Positions 1-19,174 of a DNA stretch of 64,000 bases are shown here, piece by piece; position 1 is the stretch's first letter; the number at the start of each line of letters is the position of its first letter. Both the position numbers and the translations under genes were made by a program. The stretch is from Caulobacterales bacterium RIFCSPHIGHO2_01_FULL_70_19 (GTDB taxonomy: Bacteria; Pseudomonadota; Alphaproteobacteria; Caulobacterales; Caulobacteraceae): positions 1-64,000 of the forward strand of contig MGLK01000035.1 of NCBI GenBank assembly GCA_001794825.1, written 5' to 3'. The notes under the pieces are model-generated. The model was not told the DNA's origin, did no database searches, and saw only the letters and a list, made by a program, of their open reading frames with translations.

Positions 1-2
1 CT

Positions 3-178
3 GCGCAGACCGGCCTCTTGCCAACCCCAACAACCCCAGCTCAGATCAACTACGGACTCTTGTTATGGCTGGATGAGAAACGGGGGTCACGTCAGTCAAC
101 TTCCGGGAGGCCGAGTCGCACGGGAAGTTTCTGAACTCCGAGTTCAAGGCCAAGGGCTATCCTTGCCGAGAGCTATAA
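3..178 (+). pseudogene. possible frameshifted 3' end of an unknown gene
   Basis: Two reading frames join into one plausible C-terminus. Frame 3 from the window edge reads ...NYGLLLWLDEKRG up to a run of five G at about 92-96. Frame 2 then reads VNFREAESHGKFLNSEFKA... to a TAA at 176-178. One extra G in the homopolymer would make the frame continuous. It could be a decayed gene of the mobile element or a base-calling error in the G run. The 5' part lies outside the window and the family is not recognised. Confidence is low because the segment is short. Confidence 0.3.
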
Positions 179-573: not shown

Positions 574-834
574 TCACTCACGCGGTTCCTGCGGCCGGAT
601 TCCGAGCCTTTTCGCCTCATCTCGCACCGCATTGTTCAGAGCGTCGGTAGCCACAAGCAGACCGGCAAGCGCACCCCGAGCCGCGGGATAGTCCCTGCCT
701 TCCTGGGCAGCCGCCTTCACCCTCAGCAGAGTACGAGCGCTCAAACCTGTGAGCCGCGCCATAGGGCCAGCCCACTCTGCCCCAAACATGCGTTCACCCA
801 GACGGGTCACGGCGACTGACGCGAGTTCGGACAT
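574..834 (-). CDS. small helix-turn-helix-like protein
   Basis: This 86-residue protein starts at ATG 834 behind a clear AGGAG seven bases upstream. Its first half (GERMFGAEWAGPMARLTGLSARTL, around residues 13-36) has the spacing of a helix-turn-helix segment. It resembles small alphaproteobacterial phage-type regulators with a G-x-x-W...LA..LGVS.RT pattern; this is a motif judgement, not a database match. No other domain is visible. A 17-bp imperfect palindrome at 844-860 touches its ribosome binding site, so self-repression is plausible. It is divergent from the gene at 1154, and the gap between them holds a tandem repeat array. DNA binding is inferred. Confidence 0.65.
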   Translation of the reverse strand: MSELASVAVTRLGERMFGAEWAGPMARLTGLSARTLLRVKAAAQEGRDYPAARGALAGLLVATDALNNAVRDEAKRLGIRPQEPRE

Positions 835-843
835 GCAAGCTCC

Positions 844-860
844 TGTCTGATATCCCGACA
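844..860. promoter_or_regulatory. imperfect palindrome, candidate operator
   Basis: The sequence TGTCTGATATCCCGACA has inverted TGTC/GACA ends. It matches the perfect palindrome at 1094-1110 at 13 of 17 positions. It lies directly upstream of, and partly over, the ribosome binding site of the leftward gene 574-834, a good position for repression. The binding protein is unknown; the product of 574-834 is the first candidate. Confidence 0.5.
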
Positions 861-900
861 GTGCCCGCTGTGGCCGGCTGCGTCAATCTTGAGCTTCTCC

Positions 901-1004
901 GAGGGGTTTCTCCGAGGGGTTTCTCCGAGGGGTTTCTCCGAGGGGTTTCTCCGAGGGGTTTCTCCGAGGGGTTTCTCCGAGGGGTTTCTCCGAGGGGTTT
1001 CTCC
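901..1004. repeat. eight perfect 13-bp tandem repeats
   Basis: The unit GAGGGGTTTCTCC is repeated eight times without a mismatch, with a partial copy on each side (about 894-900 and 1005-1008). A 13-bp unit shifts the reading frame at each copy and contains no stop, so every frame stays open and produces artificial 13-residue peptide repeats; none of these is a supported protein. The array lies between two divergent genes and between two related palindromes. It could be a variable-number repeat, an iteron-like protein-binding array or a spacing element. There are no unique spacers, so it is not a CRISPR array. Confidence 0.9.
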
Positions 1005-1075
1005 GAGGCCTGCGGGCGATGGGCGGCAGCGCGCGGCCGATCAACCTCCGCTTTGTGCAGCTCGGGATCTGACGC

Positions 1076-1110
1076 TTGACCAAGGCCGACAAGTGTCGGA
1101 TTATCCGACA
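1076..1110 (+). promoter_or_regulatory. promoter overlapped by a perfect 17-bp palindrome
   Basis: A candidate promoter has TTGACC at 1076-1081 and GATTAT at 1099-1104, 17 bp apart. The palindrome TGTCGGATTATCCGACA (1094-1110) has 8-bp arms around one central base and covers the -10 element, the usual arrangement for a repressor-controlled promoter. It would drive the gene at 1154. A degenerate second copy lies at 844-860. Confidence 0.55.
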
Positions 1111-1153
1111 GCTCCGGCGACGTGCAGGAGCGAGATCGGAAAGGACCGAAGCC

Positions 1154-1582
1154 ATGATCACCGCCGCCAGTGCGCCCGCTGCCCGTACCCTCATCACCCT
1201 CACCACCCTTGAGGAGTCGGGCTTCCGCTTTGCTGCCTTCGCCGGCGAACTCCTTCGATCCAAACACCGCGGGTGGTGCTCCAATGAGGATCGGGGCACC
1301 GTCTTCCGCCCCCTGATCGTCCGGACGTCGTCCGGCAGGAGCGGAGCTCGTTTCGTCGCGGGGTACCAAGTCAGTGACTCAGAGGTGATCGTGCTTGACC
1401 TCGGACTGACGTTCCAAGGGCCGCAGGCCGGCGAGCTCGGCGTCTGTGAGGCAGCTGGCGAAGCTGCGGCCTATGCTGACGCGATCAGTGAGCGGGAGGC
1501 CTATCGTTTTCGGACACTAGCTGCCTCCCGCCGGAAGCTGCCGCAGGCGCTTCATGAGCTCGGACTTCGCTGGGCCGCATAA
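1154..1582 (+). CDS. hypothetical protein of the mobile element
   Basis: The predicted protein has 142 residues. I chose ATG 1154 because AAAGGA precedes it at a suitable distance and because the further upstream frame would run through the promoter and palindrome. No signal peptide or membrane segment is visible. The centre is hydrophobic and strand-like (around VIVLDLGLTFQG) and the C-terminus is basic and helical. I do not recognise the family. The gene is divergent from the helix-turn-helix-like gene 574-834, sits behind a palindrome-covered promoter and is followed by an intrinsic terminator, so it is likely a monocistronic regulated unit. Confidence 0.6.
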   Translation: MITAASAPAARTLITLTTLEESGFRFAAFAGELLRSKHRGWCSNEDRGTVFRPLIVRTSSGRSGARFVAGYQVSDSEVIVLDLGLTFQGPQAGELGVCEAAGEAAAYADAISEREAYRFRTLAASRRKLPQALHELGLRWAA

Positions 1583-2856: not shown

Positions 2857-5427
2857 TCAGTGCACCCTGCAGAAGATGCGCTGCTTGCCATAGTTCTTCG
2901 TGTTCCTCTGACCAGCCACTCGCCAACCTGGGACCAACCTCATTGCACGGCCGAGCATCTGTTGCGTCCTCTGGTCGTATTTCGCTCGATCTAAGCCCAG
3001 GACGTGGTCACGAACCTCAGCGAGACAGACTTCGGAGCGAAGCTCGCCATGGGCGACACCTTCGGCTCCGAAACCATCGCCGACCGGGCTCTCGAGCCAT
3101 GCTGATATTTGGCCGGCGAGCACCTCGTCTGCCGTTTCCTGGCGCCGACTCTCTTGCAGCTCCGCCGCTTCTTCTGAAGCAGCGGCGTTCCGAAGGTAGA
3201 GCGGCAGTGAGCCAGCGGGCGACTGTTCGCGCCACGTCGCGTACATCGCCTTTGCCTCCGCCCAAATCTGATCAATCTCGGCTTCAAGTCTGTCTGTATC
3301 GATCTCCTCCACACTGCATGCGATCGGCCAGAAACGACGACCGCCGGTAGCGTCGCGCAGGTACTCGGTCTCGTTGGTGCTACCCATAAACACGCAGGAG
3401 CGGTGAAACTCGACCGCACGTCGGGCGTACGCCATTCGCACCTTGTCAACGGGCCGGCTGATGAAGCCTTTGAGCGTTGTCACCTCCGCCCGCGAGAAGC
3501 CTTGGAGTTCAGGGATTTCGCAGATCCAGGCACCTTGCATCTTCTCGACCATGCCTTGTGTATCGTGGAAATCACCCTCGAGTTCGCAAGCCCATGACCT
3601 TCCGAGGATGCGGATGAACGTAGATTTCCGCTTGCCTTGCGTCCCCTCCAGGATCGGTACGAAATCGAACTTGTGGCCGGGTTCGAAAATCCTGGTGATT
3701 GCCCCCACCATAAACAGGACCGCCGACTCCCTGTGGTACGGCGTGTCCGGAGCGCCGAGATACTCGGTGAAGAGGCGTTCGACACGGCAAATGCCGTCCC
3801 AGATCAGTCCCGCAAGGTAGTCCCGGACCGGGTGGAAGGCGTTCTCGTGTGCGACCAGGTCGATCGCCCCACTAAGATCCCGGTCGCTGACTTTGATCCC
3901 GTAGCCACCCTGGCGCTCCGGCGCCTCAATCAGCGCCCGAACGGCATGGTCATGGCTGTCCGACCATAGACTGCCGTTCCGGGGATCTCGAGGTGTCCAG
4001 ATCGCTCCATCGAGTTGGCGTATCGGCTTAGGGGCTTCCTTTTGGAGGCGCAGTGTTCCGGGCTTGCGGATCAGCACTACTTCGCGAGTGAACTCATTGA
4101 AGGCCACGACGCCGCGGAGCCGAACATCGTTGCGGACGATCAGTTGAACGTTAGGTAGCGTCGGCTTGACGATGCCGTCTTCGTTCCGTTGCAGGAATGA
4201 TCGCCACTCCGGATCGTAGACCAGGGGCGGACGTGTCACTCCAGCGGCGCGCGGCGTGATCGGATGCGGTGTGCCGCCGAGCAGTTCGGCCAGGTCTGCG
4301 TCGACCGCCGAAGCGGCCGGCAGCACGGTCAGCGCGGTCGAAGGTCGCCCTAGCAGGTCGGCGAGGTCGTCATCGGCCTCCACGAAGCCATCATCGAGCG
4401 CGGCATGGGCGACCGACAGGCGGTGGTCCGCGGCGGCCTTGATGATCGAGGCCATGCGGACCGGGTTCTTGACGTGGCCCTTGCCGAAGGAGCGCCACAC
4501 GGCCGCCTGGTCCTTCGGATCGAACTTCGCCGACGCCTTCGACCACTCGCACCACCGCTCGAAGCCCGCCTGCTGCCCCTGGTGCTCGTGGTGCAGCGCC
4601 TGGCCGACCTGAAGCCAGCAGTCGCGGTCCTCGACCCAATCCGGCGGCAACCCGGCGAGGGCGTCGTCGATCTCGGCGGTCGTGAGACCCATCGGCTCGG
4701 AGCGGACCAGCGCGAACAGGTCGTCATCGTCGTCGCCGGATAGGTGATCGACCGTCGAAACACCCCATCCGGAGACGACTGCGGCCGGAATCAGGGGTCC
4801 GACGCCGATTTCGAGCAGATCCACGTCGAGCGGACGGCCCCAGCGGTAGGGTTCGCCGGTGTCGGGGTGGATCGAGGGCGGGAGAACGGCCTGCTTGCCG
4901 GTCCCGAAAAGCTCGATCTCCCAGTCCCATTTCTTGACTTCGCGGTCCTTTTTCGCGTCCCAGACCATCGAAAAACCGGCGGAATGGGCCAGTTTTCGGC
5001 TCCGGAACGGCGATTCCGACACGAAATACAGGTGTTTCGACGCTCCGCCGCTGCCTGAGACCACAAACGGGGCTTCCCGGGCCTCCGGCCACATCGCGAG
5101 CAGCGCGGCCCAGGCGTCTTCGGCCTGTTTCGGGTCGCGAATGTCGATGTCGATCAGATGAACGTAGCCGGCGGCGGTCTTCGACGGCTCGCCCGCCCGG
5201 ATGCCGAGATTCGACCCGCTGCGGTACGATTCGCGCAGGGTCTCGAAGGTGTGGACGGGGGCTGTCGACCAGCCGTCGTCGATCGGCGCCTTCTCGCGGC
5301 GCCGGAGCCAGTGGACGGCGATGCCAGCGGCGACCAGCGGTCGCGCGGCGGACAGAATCTCGCTCTCAGCGGGCAGCATGGGGCTGCCGCCCAATGGCTG
5401 AGGGCGGGTTGCGGTCAGCGACATCAT
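2857..5427 (-). CDS. PrimPol / PriCT / VapE-type primase-helicase
   Basis: This 856-residue replication protein has three recognisable parts. The N-terminal primase-polymerase domain (about 20-215) shows an acidic DID motif at 93-95, SKH at 130-132 and acidic E170/E172, as expected for archaeo-eukaryotic-type primases. A PriCT-2-like segment follows at about 240-335 (CWLQVGQALHHE, WRSFGKG). A VapE-type SF3-like ATPase occupies about 500-740, with P-loop GTQGKRKS at 595-602, Walker B-like WICEIPE near 634-640, sensor GSTNE near 682-686 and GGRRFWP near 695-701. GAAGGA precedes ATG 5427. Such proteins start and unwind replication of satellites, prophages and plasmids, so it probably replicates this element after excision. 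The P-loop has R where G is usual before K-S, a variant I recall from VapE proteins. Confidence 0.88.
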   Translation of the reverse strand: MMSLTATRPQPLGGSPMLPAESEILSAARPLVAAGIAVHWLRRREKAPIDDGWSTAPVHTFETLRESYRSGSNLGIRAGEPSKTAAGYVHLIDIDIRDPKQAEDAWAALLAMWPEAREAPFVVSGSGGASKHLYFVSESPFRSRKLAHSAGFSMVWDAKKDREVKKWDWEIELFGTGKQAVLPPSIHPDTGEPYRWGRPLDVDLLEIGVGPLIPAAVVSGWGVSTVDHLSGDDDDDLFALVRSEPMGLTTAEIDDALAGLPPDWVEDRDCWLQVGQALHHEHQGQQAGFERWCEWSKASAKFDPKDQAAVWRSFGKGHVKNPVRMASIIKAAADHRLSVAHAALDDGFVEADDDLADLLGRPSTALTVLPAASAVDADLAELLGGTPHPITPRAAGVTRPPLVYDPEWRSFLQRNEDGIVKPTLPNVQLIVRNDVRLRGVVAFNEFTREVVLIRKPGTLRLQKEAPKPIRQLDGAIWTPRDPRNGSLWSDSHDHAVRALIEAPERQGGYGIKVSDRDLSGAIDLVAHENAFHPVRDYLAGLIWDGICRVERLFTEYLGAPDTPYHRESAVLFMVGAITRIFEPGHKFDFVPILEGTQGKRKSTFIRILGRSWACELEGDFHDTQGMVEKMQGAWICEIPELQGFSRAEVTTLKGFISRPVDKVRMAYARRAVEFHRSCVFMGSTNETEYLRDATGGRRFWPIACSVEEIDTDRLEAEIDQIWAEAKAMYATWREQSPAGSLPLYLRNAAASEEAAELQESRRQETADEVLAGQISAWLESPVGDGFGAEGVAHGELRSEVCLAEVRDHVLGLDRAKYDQRTQQMLGRAMRLVPGWRVAGQRNTKNYGKQRIFCRVH

Positions 5428-6148: not shown

Positions 6149-6798
6149 TGGGCGATCTCCGCCTTGAGAAGATTGAGACTGGTGCGGGCGGCCTCGTCGA
6201 GCGCCTCAGGACCCAGTTCCCCCGGGGCAACCCGGTGCGGCAGGGCCTTCACTAAACTCGTGGCAATCGCCGAGCCTGAGATGAGGCTGTTTGGCTCCAC
6301 GGCAGGTCCGGTTTGGAAAACTGGTCCGAGCAACTCGAGCTGGAGTGCATCCAGTGCGAAAAGCTCCGCCAACGGCGCCTGAAGGGTCGACAAACAAGCC
6401 TTTGAAGTCTCGAGGGCTGCGTGCAGGCGAAGGCCTTTCCAAGCCAAGAACTGGTTGGCTAACTCCCGGCGGAGCTGCGGCAACTCGGACATCATGCCCG
6501 CGCGATCCCGGGTGAGCACTTGAATGGCCTCGTTGGCGGCCGCGATTTCGGCTTGGTACTTTCGCAGCCGCTTACCCTCCGTCGGGTCTTCGGGGGGGAG
6601 CGAATCCCCTGCAAGCGTCGCTTGCAGGTTTCGCTCGTTCCGTTCGGCCACGAGTTCGTCGAACGACGACTGGGCTGCGTCCGCGCGGGCGCGGAGCTCA
6701 TTGATCCGTCCATCCACGAGGCGAACGGCCTCCTCCTGCTCCGCGATGACGGCGCGCTGCGCTATCACGGCCGAAGGGTGAATGCCGATGGTCGTCAT
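6145..6798 (-). CDS. coiled-coil hypothetical protein
   Basis: I set the start at ATG 6798, which has AGGAGG six bases upstream and overlaps the stop of the AlpA-like gene (ATGA); a start ten codons further up would lie inside that gene. The 217-residue product has a long charged helical region, about residues 15-130, with heptad-like leucine and alanine spacing and a central loop near residue 75. A helical C-terminal domain follows. It has no signal peptide or enzyme motif. It may be a structural or interaction protein of the element; the family is not recognised. Confidence 0.6.
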   Translation of the reverse strand: MTTIGIHPSAVIAQRAVIAEQEEAVRLVDGRINELRARADAAQSSFDELVAERNERNLQATLAGDSLPPEDPTEGKRLRKYQAEIAAANEAIQVLTRDRAGMMSELPQLRRELANQFLAWKGLRLHAALETSKACLSTLQAPLAELFALDALQLELLGPVFQTGPAVEPNSLISGSAIATSLVKALPHRVAPGELGPEALDEAARTSLNLLKAEIAQ

Positions 6799-6998
6799 CG
6801 CGCTCCTCCTACCTTCGCTGCGGCCCAAGCAAGCACGCCGGTCGCCCCATCGATAGGATAGCGGACGCGACGTCCCACCCGGACAAAGGGGGGCGACTTT
6901 TCGGGCGTGTACAGGCGGAGCTTGGTGAGATAGCTCGGGCTAAGCTTCAGGAGCTTGGCCACATCTTCGACGGTTCCGAACTCTGTTGGATGGTGCAT
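6795..6998 (-). CDS. AlpA-like helix-turn-helix excisionase/regulator
   Basis: The 67-residue protein begins at ATG 6998, chosen because TGAGGAG lies seven bases upstream. GTVEDVAKLLKLSPSYLTKLR is a winged-helix MerR/excisionase-type recognition segment, followed by PPFVRVGRRVRYPIDGATGVLAW, the beta-wing typical of AlpA/Xis proteins. Relatives activate integrase genes or direct excision of satellites such as P4 and PICIs. Here it lies downstream of the integrase and upstream of the replication genes. An 8-bp-arm inverted repeat (7063-7082) lies in its leader. Confidence 0.8.
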   Translation of the reverse strand: MHHPTEFGTVEDVAKLLKLSPSYLTKLRLYTPEKSPPFVRVGRRVRYPIDGATGVLAWAAAKVGGAR

Positions 6999-7062
6999 CT
7001 GGGTCTCCTCAGAAGACCTCATGATGCTCAAACCCAGAGCTGCACCAGACGGGGAGGAAGAA

Positions 7063-7082: not shown

Positions 7083-8341
7083 CCCCGTGAGGGACCCCGC
7101 TCTAACAGCATGCGGTCGATCAGATCGCCGGCTTCTGATGGGTTGGCGCTTAGAATCTGACCCGCCAGTCTGTCGCAGACTAGAAGGCTTGTCAGGATTT
7201 CGCTTCGGTCGAAGGCAAGGAGACGAGCCCGCCGTTGACGGAGGATGTCTAGTTGCCGGGCTGCAACCAGTCCCCCTCCGGCATTCCCTTGTTCTACTTC
7301 GCTGATAAGTCCCTCGAGGGACCTGATCTCATCCCGGCGCCTGGCGTCCACGCACTCCACCACAGCAAGGTGCCGCGCCAGGCCAAGAGCGGTTTGAGCC
7401 GCCTCTCTTAGGGAGGTTCCCAACATCAGTAGCGCCGATAGTTCGCGAACACTCGGCTCCGTTAAGTCCCTCTCGACCCCTGCCCGCCTTGCCAGACGGG
7501 AGCGGAAAGCCGCCTCTTCATCGTCGACTCTTTCGCTCACCGAACGGCCACTGGCAGGTGACTCGCCGGCCGCTCTGACGATCTCACGACAGGCTTCCCT
7601 GAGGCTGGAGCCACTTCTAAGCCGTTCCTCAATCCAGATGTCTTTGGCCCAGGTCTTTGCCTGAGCACCCTCATCGAGGACGGGCAGCACCGCGCCGGCC
7701 GAAAGCAAACGATCGACGAGCAGAGTCTCGCAGGCGGCACAGGTCGAGTCGGTGAGATCCATATCGGATAGGTACCAACTTGCCCGCTCGACCAAGTCCG
7801 CCCTGAACATGGTCTGCGCCTGTCTCTCCAAGAGCTCCACATCATCTTCCAGAGGGGCGCAGGCTGAAGTGCCGATGTCCGCCTGGTCGACCGACATCAG
7901 TGTGTCGCCGTGCCGGATGACCTGTGATTGGCCTCGTTTTCGCAACCACACGCCCTGGCGATCATCCGCAGTGGCAGGGCCGAAATCCTCCGGCCAATCA
8001 GCGCCAATCCTCGCTCGATAGAGATCATCCGAGGCGGCTTCTCGCACCAAGTCACGGTGCAGGTGGCGAAATGCCTCAGCGGCACTCACCTTCTTCAGAC
8101 ATGCGAGATAAGTAGTTGCTTGCGTTCGAGGTGCCCGAACAGGAGGTTCTATAGGCCCGCGAGCCGCGGGCGGTTTGCTGAGCACGACCTGTTGTCGATC
8201 GCAGTAATCTCTCAGTTCACGCTCAAGGTTTTCGCGGCGCCATTTGCGCAGTTTTATTGCGCAGCGCTCGACCCACTTGGCAGCCCGAGTTACCGCTCGT
8301 TCGCGATTAATCGCTTGCGTCAGCAGATCGGCACGGGTCAT
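7079..8341 (-). CDS. 420-residue protein of unknown function, coupled to integrase
   Basis: The ATG at 8341 overlaps the integrase stop (ATGA), so the two genes are likely translated together. The protein is soluble, arginine- and leucine-rich and almost entirely helical by eye. An N-terminal basic helical region (about 1-60) resembles nucleic-acid-binding or oligomerisation segments. The middle part has one Cys pair (CAACE, about 200-204). No ATPase, nuclease or methylase motif is recognisable. The coupling suggests a role in integration, excision or element maintenance, but this is inference from position only. Its GC content is below that of the host genes. Confidence 0.65.
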   Translation of the reverse strand: MTRADLLTQAINRERAVTRAAKWVERCAIKLRKWRRENLERELRDYCDRQQVVLSKPPAARGPIEPPVRAPRTQATTYLACLKKVSAAEAFRHLHRDLVREAASDDLYRARIGADWPEDFGPATADDRQGVWLRKRGQSQVIRHGDTLMSVDQADIGTSACAPLEDDVELLERQAQTMFRADLVERASWYLSDMDLTDSTCAACETLLVDRLLSAGAVLPVLDEGAQAKTWAKDIWIEERLRSGSSLREACREIVRAAGESPASGRSVSERVDDEEAAFRSRLARRAGVERDLTEPSVRELSALLMLGTSLREAAQTALGLARHLAVVECVDARRRDEIRSLEGLISEVEQGNAGGGLVAARQLDILRQRRARLLAFDRSEILTSLLVCDRLAGQILSANPSEAGDLIDRMLLERGPSRG

Positions 8342-9621
8342 TTCCCAGAAGGCCCTTCCAAGCCGAGCGCAGTCGCAATCGCCCCCGCTATCGCATTTGA
8401 GGCTCGGCTCAGAGACTGATCAGCCACGTGAGCGTATCTCGTGGTGGTCGACGCTGAACGGTGTCCTAAGAGCTGCCCGACCACGTAGAGGCCAAGGCCT
8501 GAGGAAGCACCGACTGACGCGAAGGAATGCCTCAAGTCGTGGATTCGGAGGTCGTGCAGGCCCGCGTGCGCGCGGATGCGTCGCCAGGGACGGTTAAGAT
8601 CGGTCCGCGGGCGCTCAGCTTCTCCCGAAGTTCCAGGCTCACCCGCGATAACGAACGGACCACTGGGCTTGATTGAGGCGAGCACTGCAAGAGCTGCGTC
8701 GCTGAGGATCAGTACCTTTCTGCCGGTTTTGGAGTCAGGCAAGACCGCGAGTCCCTGCCTCTCGTTCACCTGATCCCACCGCAGATTCAGGATTTCCCGC
8801 AGGCGGGCGCCCGTCAGTATCAGCAGTTTGATTGCCGCGATTGCGTAGGGATCGACGACTACTCGCCGGTTCTCCGCGCGCGGTGCGTGCTTCAGCTTCT
8901 TAGATGGATCGGGCGTCCAGGGAATTCCTGCGGAGCCAGCCAGCACGAGCGTTTGACCGAGTCGCGCGAACTCCTCCTCAGTGAGGTACCTCTCCCGCAG
9001 ATGCTCGCGATAGGCATCAGCGGCCGTTGCGGGGTTCTCAAACTGCGCTGGCAGTTGCCCCTGTCTCTTTCCGTACTCGAGGGCGGCTCGAAGCATCACC
9101 ACGACGCGATTAGCCGTGACTGGGTGCTTGCGGCCGATCGTCCGGTGCAGGTCCGTTATGTCCCTTCGCGAAAGGAGGTGCGCAGGGCGGGACCCAATCT
9201 GCGGATCAATGTGGATGCGGAGGTACCCAGCGTAGAGCGTGTGCGTGGTGGGCTTCCGTAGCCTTGCGACGCGCCCTTCGATGTAACCCTGAACCACCTC
9301 GTTCACTGTAGGTGCGTTCCTCCGGGCTTGACGCTCAGCCGCAGGATCGCCTCCGAGCCGCACCTTGGCGAGATGCTGCTCGGCCATCGCGCGGGCATGG
9401 TCGGCACGGAAATGCGGAGCATCCCTTCCAAGCACGATCCGCCGTTTGGGCACCCGCCGGCCACCAGCCCCGGGCCGGAATTCTACGAAGTAAGAGATCA
9501 GCCCCTGCGGGCTGATACGAACGCCGAACCCCGTCAGCCGCCGATCATAGTGGATGACGGCTCGGCCCGGCTCACCCTCCATTGCCGCGATCGTCCGGCG
9601 GTCGATATCGATCAACGCCAC
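8338..9621 (-). CDS. int: tyrosine integrase
   Basis: This site-specific recombinase would integrate and excise the element at the tRNA-Thr gene next to it. The N-terminal part carries the arm-binding fold of P4-type integrases (YDRRLTGFGVRISPQG). The catalytic set is complete: Arg in TGARLREIL, Lys in DSKTGRKV, His-x-x-Arg in HDLRHSF, His in LLGHRS and the nucleophile Tyr in TTRYAHV near the C-terminus. I prefer GTG 9621 (427 residues) because AGGAG lies just upstream; an ATG at 9651 would place two copies of a candidate operator inside the gene. It lies 143 bases from the attachment remnant and is the first gene of the leftward operon. Confidence 0.92.
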   Translation of the reverse strand: MALIDIDRRTIAAMEGEPGRAVIHYDRRLTGFGVRISPQGLISYFVEFRPGAGGRRVPKRRIVLGRDAPHFRADHARAMAEQHLAKVRLGGDPAAERQARRNAPTVNEVVQGYIEGRVARLRKPTTHTLYAGYLRIHIDPQIGSRPAHLLSRRDITDLHRTIGRKHPVTANRVVVMLRAALEYGKRQGQLPAQFENPATAADAYREHLRERYLTEEEFARLGQTLVLAGSAGIPWTPDPSKKLKHAPRAENRRVVVDPYAIAAIKLLILTGARLREILNLRWDQVNERQGLAVLPDSKTGRKVLILSDAALAVLASIKPSGPFVIAGEPGTSGEAERPRTDLNRPWRRIRAHAGLHDLRIHDLRHSFASVGASSGLGLYVVGQLLGHRSASTTTRYAHVADQSLSRASNAIAGAIATALGLEGPSGK

Positions 9622-9631
9622 GGTGCTCTCC

Positions 9632-9659
9632 TGTCGCCACCGTGTCGCCACGGAACAGG
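9632..9659. promoter_or_regulatory. direct repeats upstream of the integrase
   Basis: TGTCGCCAC occurs at 9632-9640 and again at 9643-9651, eleven bases apart, which is about one helical turn. GGAACAGG follows at 9652-9659 and is identical to the unit of the repeat cluster at 2161-2241. Both motifs thus recur elsewhere in the element, at the alpA-like leader and at the putative origin. This is a candidate control region for the integrase. Confidence 0.5.
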
Positions 9660-9738: not shown

Positions 9739-9758
9739 ATCCCAGCGCCCGCCTGACC

Positions 9759-10280
9759 CTATGATCGGTTTTGTAAACCGAAGGTCACGGGTTCGATCCC
9801 TGTAGCCGGCACCATCGCCTCACCTCGGGCCCCTGTCGGCTCCGGGACCGCCGCGGCCAGACGGCGCCGCGCCTCATGCAGACGGGCGAATTCCAGCGCC
9901 GCCTCGCTGCCGAAGAGGACCGGGTCCGCCGAGTGCGCATCCTCGATCACGGCGAGGACCGCGTCGATGGCGTCCTCGCGCGTGGGACGCTCCTCCCTGA
10001 CCAGCGCGTCAAGCAGGAGGACCAGCCGCTTGCGGCGGGAGCTGGCCTCCGCGCGAAGCTCGCTCTCCGCTCCCGGTCGACGCAGGGGCGGCGGCGAGGC
10101 GGGCGTCGCGACCAACGGTGTCCGCGGGGTCGCAGGGGCCGCCTCTGCCCGCGTCCTGGCGGACGGATCGCGGGACGCCTCGCCCGCCAGCCTGCCGCAG
10201 CGCCGGCAGCGTTCCGACTGATGGCGCTCCGACCAGTAGTAGACGTGCCGACAGAGCAGCGGCTTCAAAGGCGACAGCAT
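9759..10280 (-). CDS. hypothetical protein with Cys/His motif; C-terminus runs into the tRNA remnant
   Basis: The gene starts at ATG 10280. The first 25 residues hold CRHVYYWSERHQSERCRRC, a C-x2-C and H pattern that could bind zinc. The middle is alanine/proline-rich and a helical region follows (about 80-150). The last 18 residues (from MVPATGIEP) are translated from the antisense strand of the tRNA-Thr fragment, a well-known artefact in databases. The stop codon (9759-9761) lies at the element junction, so the integration changed the end of this frame. The function is not known; the N-terminal two thirds look genuine. Confidence 0.5.
   Translation of the reverse strand: MLSPLKPLLCRHVYYWSERHQSERCRRCGRLAGEASRDPSARTRAEAAPATPRTPLVATPASPPPLRRPGAESELRAEASSRRKRLVLLLDALVREERPTREDAIDAVLAVIEDAHSADPVLFGSEAALEFARLHEARRRLAAAVPEPTGARGEAMVPATGIEPVTFGLQNRS
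9765..9814 (+). other. attachment-site remnant: 3' half of tRNA-Thr(UGU)
   Basis: The sequence folds as the 3' part of a tRNA: anticodon stem TCGGT/ACCGA (9765-9769, 9777-9781) with loop TTTGTAA and anticodon TGT, T arm ACGGG-TTCGATC-CCTGT (9787-9803), acceptor strand AGCCGGC (9804-9810), discriminator A and an encoded CCA (9812-9814). A matching 5' acceptor GCCGGCT and a D arm are absent upstream, so it is not a complete gene. This is the usual scar at the end of an element integrated into a tRNA gene. An intact tRNA-Thr should lie at the other end, left of the window. Confidence 0.85.
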
Positions 10281-18413: not shown

Positions 18414-19174
18414 ACGTCGTAGCCCGGCGACTTGCGGTCGAGCATGCGCAGCGCTCCCGGCCACGCCAGGGCCGAGACGAAACCGATGCCCCCGCCCTGC
18501 TGCCGGGTCTCCTCCTGGGCCGCGTCGGGAGCGAACAGCACGTGCTCGCGCCCGCCCGACAGGGCCGCCACCTGCTGGGCGCAGGCACGCTCGAGGAAGA
18601 ACATCGCGACCCAGGCCTGCGCCGCTGTCTGGCCGACGGCCAGCGTGCCGTGGTTGCGAAGGAGCATCAGCGGCTTGTCGCCCAGGTCCGCCACCAGCCG
18701 CTCGCGCTCCTCATGGTTCAGGGCGAGGCCTTCGTAGCCGTGGTACGCGACCTGATGCTGAAGCAGGCAGGCGTTCTGGCCGATCGGCAGCAAACCCTCC
18801 TTCTGCGCCGCCACCCCGACCCCGGCGACCGTGTGCAGGTGGATCACGAAGTGGGCGTCCTCGCGGGCGCCGTGGATGGCGGAGTGGATCGTGAAGCCGG
18901 CCGGATTGATGAAGTTGGTGGTCTCCTGGACGATGGCGCCGTCGAGGTCGACCTTGACCAGGGACGAAGCGGTGATCTCTTCGAAATAGAAGCCGTACGG
19001 ATTGATCAGGAAGTGCTTTTCCGGACCGGGCACGCGCGCTGAAATGTGGGTGAAGATCATGTCGTCCCACCCGTGGAGCGCGACGAGCCGGTAGAGCGCC
19101 GCCAGCTCGACGCGCGCCTTCCACTCCGCCTCCGACACCTTCGACTTGAGGGAGGTGATCGCCCCGTCCGCCAT
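18410..19174 (-). CDS. class II aldolase/adducin family protein
   Basis: This 254-residue cytosolic enzyme-like protein has the aldolase II fold. It contains GWDDMIFTHISARVPGPE, the zinc-ligand motif HLHTVAGV and a later RNHGTLAVG segment whose His is normally the third zinc ligand. Family members cleave or epimerise sugar phosphates such as fuculose-1-phosphate; many annotated relatives have unknown substrates and so does this one. Its stop overlaps the GTG of the beta-barrel gene, which suggests a two-gene operon. Confidence 0.9.
   Translation of the reverse strand: MADGAITSLKSKVSEAEWKARVELAALYRLVALHGWDDMIFTHISARVPGPEKHFLINPYGFYFEEITASSLVKVDLDGAIVQETTNFINPAGFTIHSAIHGAREDAHFVIHLHTVAGVGVAAQKEGLLPIGQNACLLQHQVAYHGYEGLALNHEERERLVADLGDKPLMLLRNHGTLAVGQTAAQAWVAMFFLERACAQQVAALSGGREHVLFAPDAAQEETRQQGGGIGFVSALAWPGALRMLDRKSPGYDV

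Follow-up and report, generated by a model that had tools for sequence, protein, structure and literature searches.

A related pair of operator-like sites flanks a 13-bp tandem array in a putative integrative element of a Caulobacterales bacterium

The control region between two divergent genes near the start of this DNA contains a real pair of related operator-like sites around an array of perfect 13-bp repeats, in a location of an ordinary kind. We think it moderately probable that these sites are the autoregulated divergent operator pair of a regulator encoded by a mobile element, and that the array between them is a minisatellite private to this lineage. The window, that is, the whole stretch analysed, covers the initial 64 kb of contig C35, one of 42 contigs in an assembly of 2.92 Mb. 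Its control region and flanking genes are as follows.

574-834, minus strand: gene for an 86-aa helix-turn-helix (HTH)-like protein, candidate repressor (open reading frame, relatives and predicted model)
844-860, no strand assigned: left operator-like site TGTCTGATATCCCGACA, close upstream of where the HTH gene begins
881-886, minus strand: candidate leftward -35 box TTGACG (TTGACGC exact, second box with three mismatches)
895-1008, no strand assigned: tandem array with unit TTCTCCGAGGGGT (13 bp), present in 8.8 perfect copies (TRF)
1076-1104, plus strand: sigma-70-like promoter TTGACC-N17-GATTAT (promoter scan)
1094-1110, no strand assigned: right operator-like palindrome TGTCGGATTATCCGACA, perfect, over the -10 of the rightward promoter
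1154-1582, plus strand: gene for a 142-aa protein, first on the rightward side (open reading frame)

The significance of the two sites rests in their relatedness, as neither is remarkable alone. Seven perfect palindromes of the 8+1+8 form occur in the 64-kb window, the one at 1094-1110 among them, and therefore the right palindrome by itself is not rare. The left site matches at 5/8 arm pairs, which is unremarkable for a palindrome, and lies three mismatches from the palindromic consensus. When compared with each other, the sites are identical at 13/17 positions in direct orientation and at 14/17 when one is compared with the reverse complement of the other. A comparable pair appeared in only 1 of 20,000 shuffles of the two flanks. 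Across the genome, just nine places lie within three mismatches of TGTCGGATNATCCGACA; two are this pair, 250 bp apart, and each of the other seven is exactly three mismatches off. An earlier note on this DNA had described two palindromes agreeing at 13/17 positions, the right one perfect and covering the rightward -10, and both statements were confirmed, by direct comparison and by the promoter scan, respectively. Its imperfect left palindrome held up as a relative of the right site but was weak as a palindrome.

TTGACC-17-GATTAT is the only promoter that the scan found nearby (0.1 expected in shuffles), and its GATTAT box lies inside the right palindrome. No leftward promoter passed the scan; the -10 belonging to the candidate leftward -35 would fall at about 858-863, on the edge of the left operator, and has a poor sequence. 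The left site adjoins the ATG of the 86-aa gene (start at 834) and touches the likely ribosome-binding sequence. Each of the two sites is placed at a gene start or a promoter, in agreement with the divergent control region that had been proposed. Measured upstream from the -35 boxes, the array is 8 bp away from the candidate leftward one and 67 bp away from the rightward one, and therefore lies between the promoters and inside neither. No site within two mismatches of the IHF-like WATCAANNNNTTR was found between the operators, including the array itself, the only weak match being at 1090-1102, where it overlaps the right operator. DnaA boxes were not found in positions 1-2900.

Four genomes of the genus encode distant relatives of the 574-834 product, with 33-42% identity over 52-70 residues and 28-34% overall. 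In the alignment, these proteins share with it G, RTxxR, AA, G and Y, and the gene of each relative lies close to, or directly beside, a large gene with matches to phage DNA primase families; the family is therefore assigned, from this gene neighbourhood, to phage-like elements. The best single-sequence AlphaFold model (mean pLDDT 89.6; 56-66 for the other four models) is a bundle of HTH-like helices, located at residues 4-20, 22-29, 33-44 and 50-76. Foldseek placed HipB, C-protein and other XRE-type HTH proteins as the best, weak matches (E > 0.4), a resemblance of the predicted model that is consistent with an HTH protein, short of proof. The product matched no curated Pfam, NCBIfam or PHROG family above the cut-off. 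The earlier description of this product as HTH-like thus gains support from the RTxxR motif common to the distant relatives and from the helical model. On the other side, the 142-aa product has marginal relatives only (E 5e-5 and 1.3e-4), matches PHROG families with no assigned function at E 0.0055-0.016 and gave a structure model of low confidence. Protein searches with the genes flanking the array found no match in phages, plasmids, viral contigs or GTDB contigs.

From their gene content, positions 1 to about 9811 appear to be an integrative element that lacks its left end. The features beyond the 142-aa gene are listed below.

2160-2434, no strand assigned: ACCTGTTCC repeats, both direct and inverted, past the 3' end of the replicase gene; likely origin of the element
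2857-5427, minus strand: Prim-Pol/PriCT-2/VapE replicase (family matches)
6795-7031, minus strand: AlpA/excisionase-like HTH protein (weak matches)
8338-9651, minus strand: tyrosine integrase (family match)
9747-9811, plus strand: probable remnant of an att site, tRNA-like (Rfam tRNA score 29.3 bits, cut-off 29)

ARAGORN called no tRNA at 9747-9811. The 24-bp core of the tRNA-like sequence occurs once in the assembly within two mismatches, so the partner att site or intact tRNA is in an assembly gap or missing. At the other end, contigs C16, C6 and C1 each end in a copy of window positions 1-95 (97-100% identity), so contig C35 stops at a repeat; a mobile repeat probably interrupted the assembly here. 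The same 95 bp are also similar to Acidisoma plasmid sequence. Position-wise GC discriminates coding poorly in this element.

Taking these observations together, we propose that the 86-aa HTH-like protein is the most likely binder of both 17-bp sites. Binding at the left site would repress its own gene, and binding at the right site would cover the -10 and block the promoter of the 142-aa gene, the two promoters thus being blocked independently by the regulator. An operator pair is favoured because related sites of this kind are rare both by shuffling and genome-wide, and because the right site lies over the only promoter found and the left site at the HTH gene start. The HTH-like model of the protein, the phage-type primases beside its family and the element genes alongside also count in favour. 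As judged from sequence, three points weigh against this reading: the left palindrome is weak; the relatives of the protein are distant, with no such operator within four mismatches in the regions around them; and the palindrome recurs in phage contigs, as described below.

The array was recovered by TRF as a single array at 895-1008 with period 13 and 100% match, by a wide margin the strongest tandem array of the 64-kb window. It is the same array that had been reported as eight exact repeats at 901-1004 in a different register; in the register used here it comprises eight whole TTCTCCGAGGGGT units, all identical, and a final partial TTCTCCGAGG. Two consecutive units occur at no second place in the 2.92-Mb genome. 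Hairpins were rejected as an account of the array, its folding being no better than that of shuffled units, 43% of which equal it, and Rfam placed no family there. A coding role was also rejected: the array owes its several open frames solely to the lack of a stop codon in its unit, and the open reading frames through it begin with TTG or GTG and overlap the HTH gene or the 142-aa gene. The unit, with up to one mismatch allowed, was absent from the 389 other genomes among the 390 searched in the family, and from the GTDB contig and IMG/VR scans. The DNA of the region had no alignable relative in 200 related genomes, where only two chance-like matches of 25-29 bp were seen, and no match in plasmids or phages. 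Such absence elsewhere is as expected of a private minisatellite. The array would most likely have grown in this lineage by replication slippage or unequal crossing over, and it may be tolerated, with no specific role, because it lies between two promoters and inside neither. This reading is preferred because the unit is absent elsewhere, the copies are identical, the folding is not special and no IHF-like site is present.

The earlier note had gone further, suggesting that the array expanded recently and that, through changes in copy number, it could tune a repressor loop. In such a model the regulator would loop the two operators, copy number would set their distance and helical phase, and slippage would tune expression. 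The sites do flank the array, and their spacing of 250 bp centre to centre is nearly an integral number of helical turns (23.8 at 10.5 bp each, 24.0 at 10.4); the arithmetic of about 1.2 turns per unit is also correct, as one 13-bp unit adds 1.24 turns at 10.5 bp per turn. There is a precedent in Neisseria meningitidis, where NadR operators flank the variable TAAA tract of nadA, nadA expression depends on how many repeats are present, likely by way of the distance between the operators, and IHF binds between the operators (PMC2791445). In that system the unit is 4 bp, repression was shown, and the promoters assayed carried 4 to 13 repeats (PMC2791445). The present region is alike in that a tandem repeat tract lies between related operators, here recognized by sequence alone, one of which overlaps the promoter region. 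In contrast to nadA, it has a 13-bp unit, one known allele, two divergent genes and no IHF-like site between the operators. Neither copy-number variation nor the formation of a loop found support. The searches of 390 genomes of the family, of GTDB contigs, of IMG/VR and of plasmids brought up no second allele; recent expansion and its tuning effect are therefore deduced from one draft assembly of 42 contigs, representing one genome, from which the copy number itself is taken. The search collections may omit records very close to the source genome, so same-species alleles could exist. Moreover, nothing points to tetramer formation by the 86-aa protein, and a loop is unnecessary for two independently repressed promoters. 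We therefore consider this model, for which the searches returned no support, rather unlikely. The array could instead be a protein-binding platform that offers weak half-sites to the same regulator or sites to a second protein. Each unit carries TTCTCCGA, a 7/8 match to TTATCCGA of the right operator, and about 4% of shuffled units reach that likeness (3-11% depending on word length). However, these statistics are marginal, the likeness was spotted after the fact, and one direct-repeat half-site per 13 bp is ill-suited to a symmetric dimer, which makes a platform quite improbable.

The right-site palindrome also occurs in phage contigs. In L075 (IMGVR_UViG_3300045257_000080), the right-operator palindrome occurs in seven copies with up to one mismatch between positions 18772 and 28107, several of them directly before the start of a gene, with GAAAC ahead of the palindrome; by its distribution, it appears to be a dispersed phage regulatory motif. 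L079 has the palindrome at 6650 and 7512. A different set, three TGTC-N9-GACA palindromes in a 22-bp tandem before a small gene (MANETKKSGIRVSKRTVDEI...), is found in L078 at 2811-2871 and also in L082, L090 and L092, and appears from sequence to be a tandem operator array.

Phage contigs that carry the right-site palindrome have no detectable relative of the 86-aa protein, and so another regulator could read it. The two operators might then be recognized by a host or helper-phage protein, with the 86-aa gene merely a target. The seven near-exact copies in one phage contig, several before gene starts, favour this possibility, whereas the seven remaining places in the bacterium's own genome all differ by exactly three positions, no host regulon is evident, and the phage record is a fragment. 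In addition, a regulator gene adjoining its own operator is the usual arrangement. We regard recognition by another regulator as unlikely. Least of all do we expect the array to serve the element as replication iterons. In favour of that role are its short, perfect direct repeats and the replicase that the element itself encodes. Against it, the array lies 1.85 kb from the replicase end, and the ACCTGTTCC repeats at 2160-2434, nearer to the replicase 3' end, are a better candidate. Sister elements carry repeats of other sequence at the equivalent place (ACCTGTCC in L057, at 8675-8763; CCTGTAG in L058, at about 9200-9560), and no array similar to the present one was found in the sister regions. 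That place is also where gram-negative PICIs keep their origin, at the replicase 3' end (PMC6092414). In these VapE/Prim-Pol elements, the clusters of short direct and inverted repeats thus keep their place but not their sequence, as if origin and replicase specificity were co-evolving. The array was accordingly set aside as an origin in favour of the 2160-2434 repeats; an iteron role is extremely improbable. Rfam miRNA names at 2161-2242 were dismissed as chance matches to the inverted repeats.

The preferred reading, an operator pair of the element's own regulator, has parallels in known switches. As in the divergent CI/Cro-type switches of temperate phages and the Stl switch of the phage-inducible SaPIs, a small HTH-like gene is found in an integrative element, with one site where the gene begins and a second on the divergent promoter. 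Unlike those systems, the HTH protein falls outside the named families, and the switch is not between integrase and replicase, the opposite gene being that of the family-less 142-aa protein. The element as a whole resembles gram-negative PICI/P4-like satellites (PMC6092414) in its integrase, AlpA-like gene (a weak match) and primase-replicase, in the repeats next to the replicase 3' end and in the tRNA-like sequence at its end. It differs in that no packaging or helper-interference genes were identified and in that its other end lies beyond the contig end.

It is a decidedly remote prospect that a slippage-prone minisatellite between the element's own operators sets the tightness of its silencing by copy number, as a contingency locus of a mobile element. 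If copy number were to tune the switch in this way, repeat-tuned repression of the nadA type would reach beyond a surface adhesin and include the switch of a mobile element. For the present, the region is a neat pair of operators around a private minisatellite, and its main yield is a candidate regulator, with a candidate operator, in an element of a kind that has been little studied.
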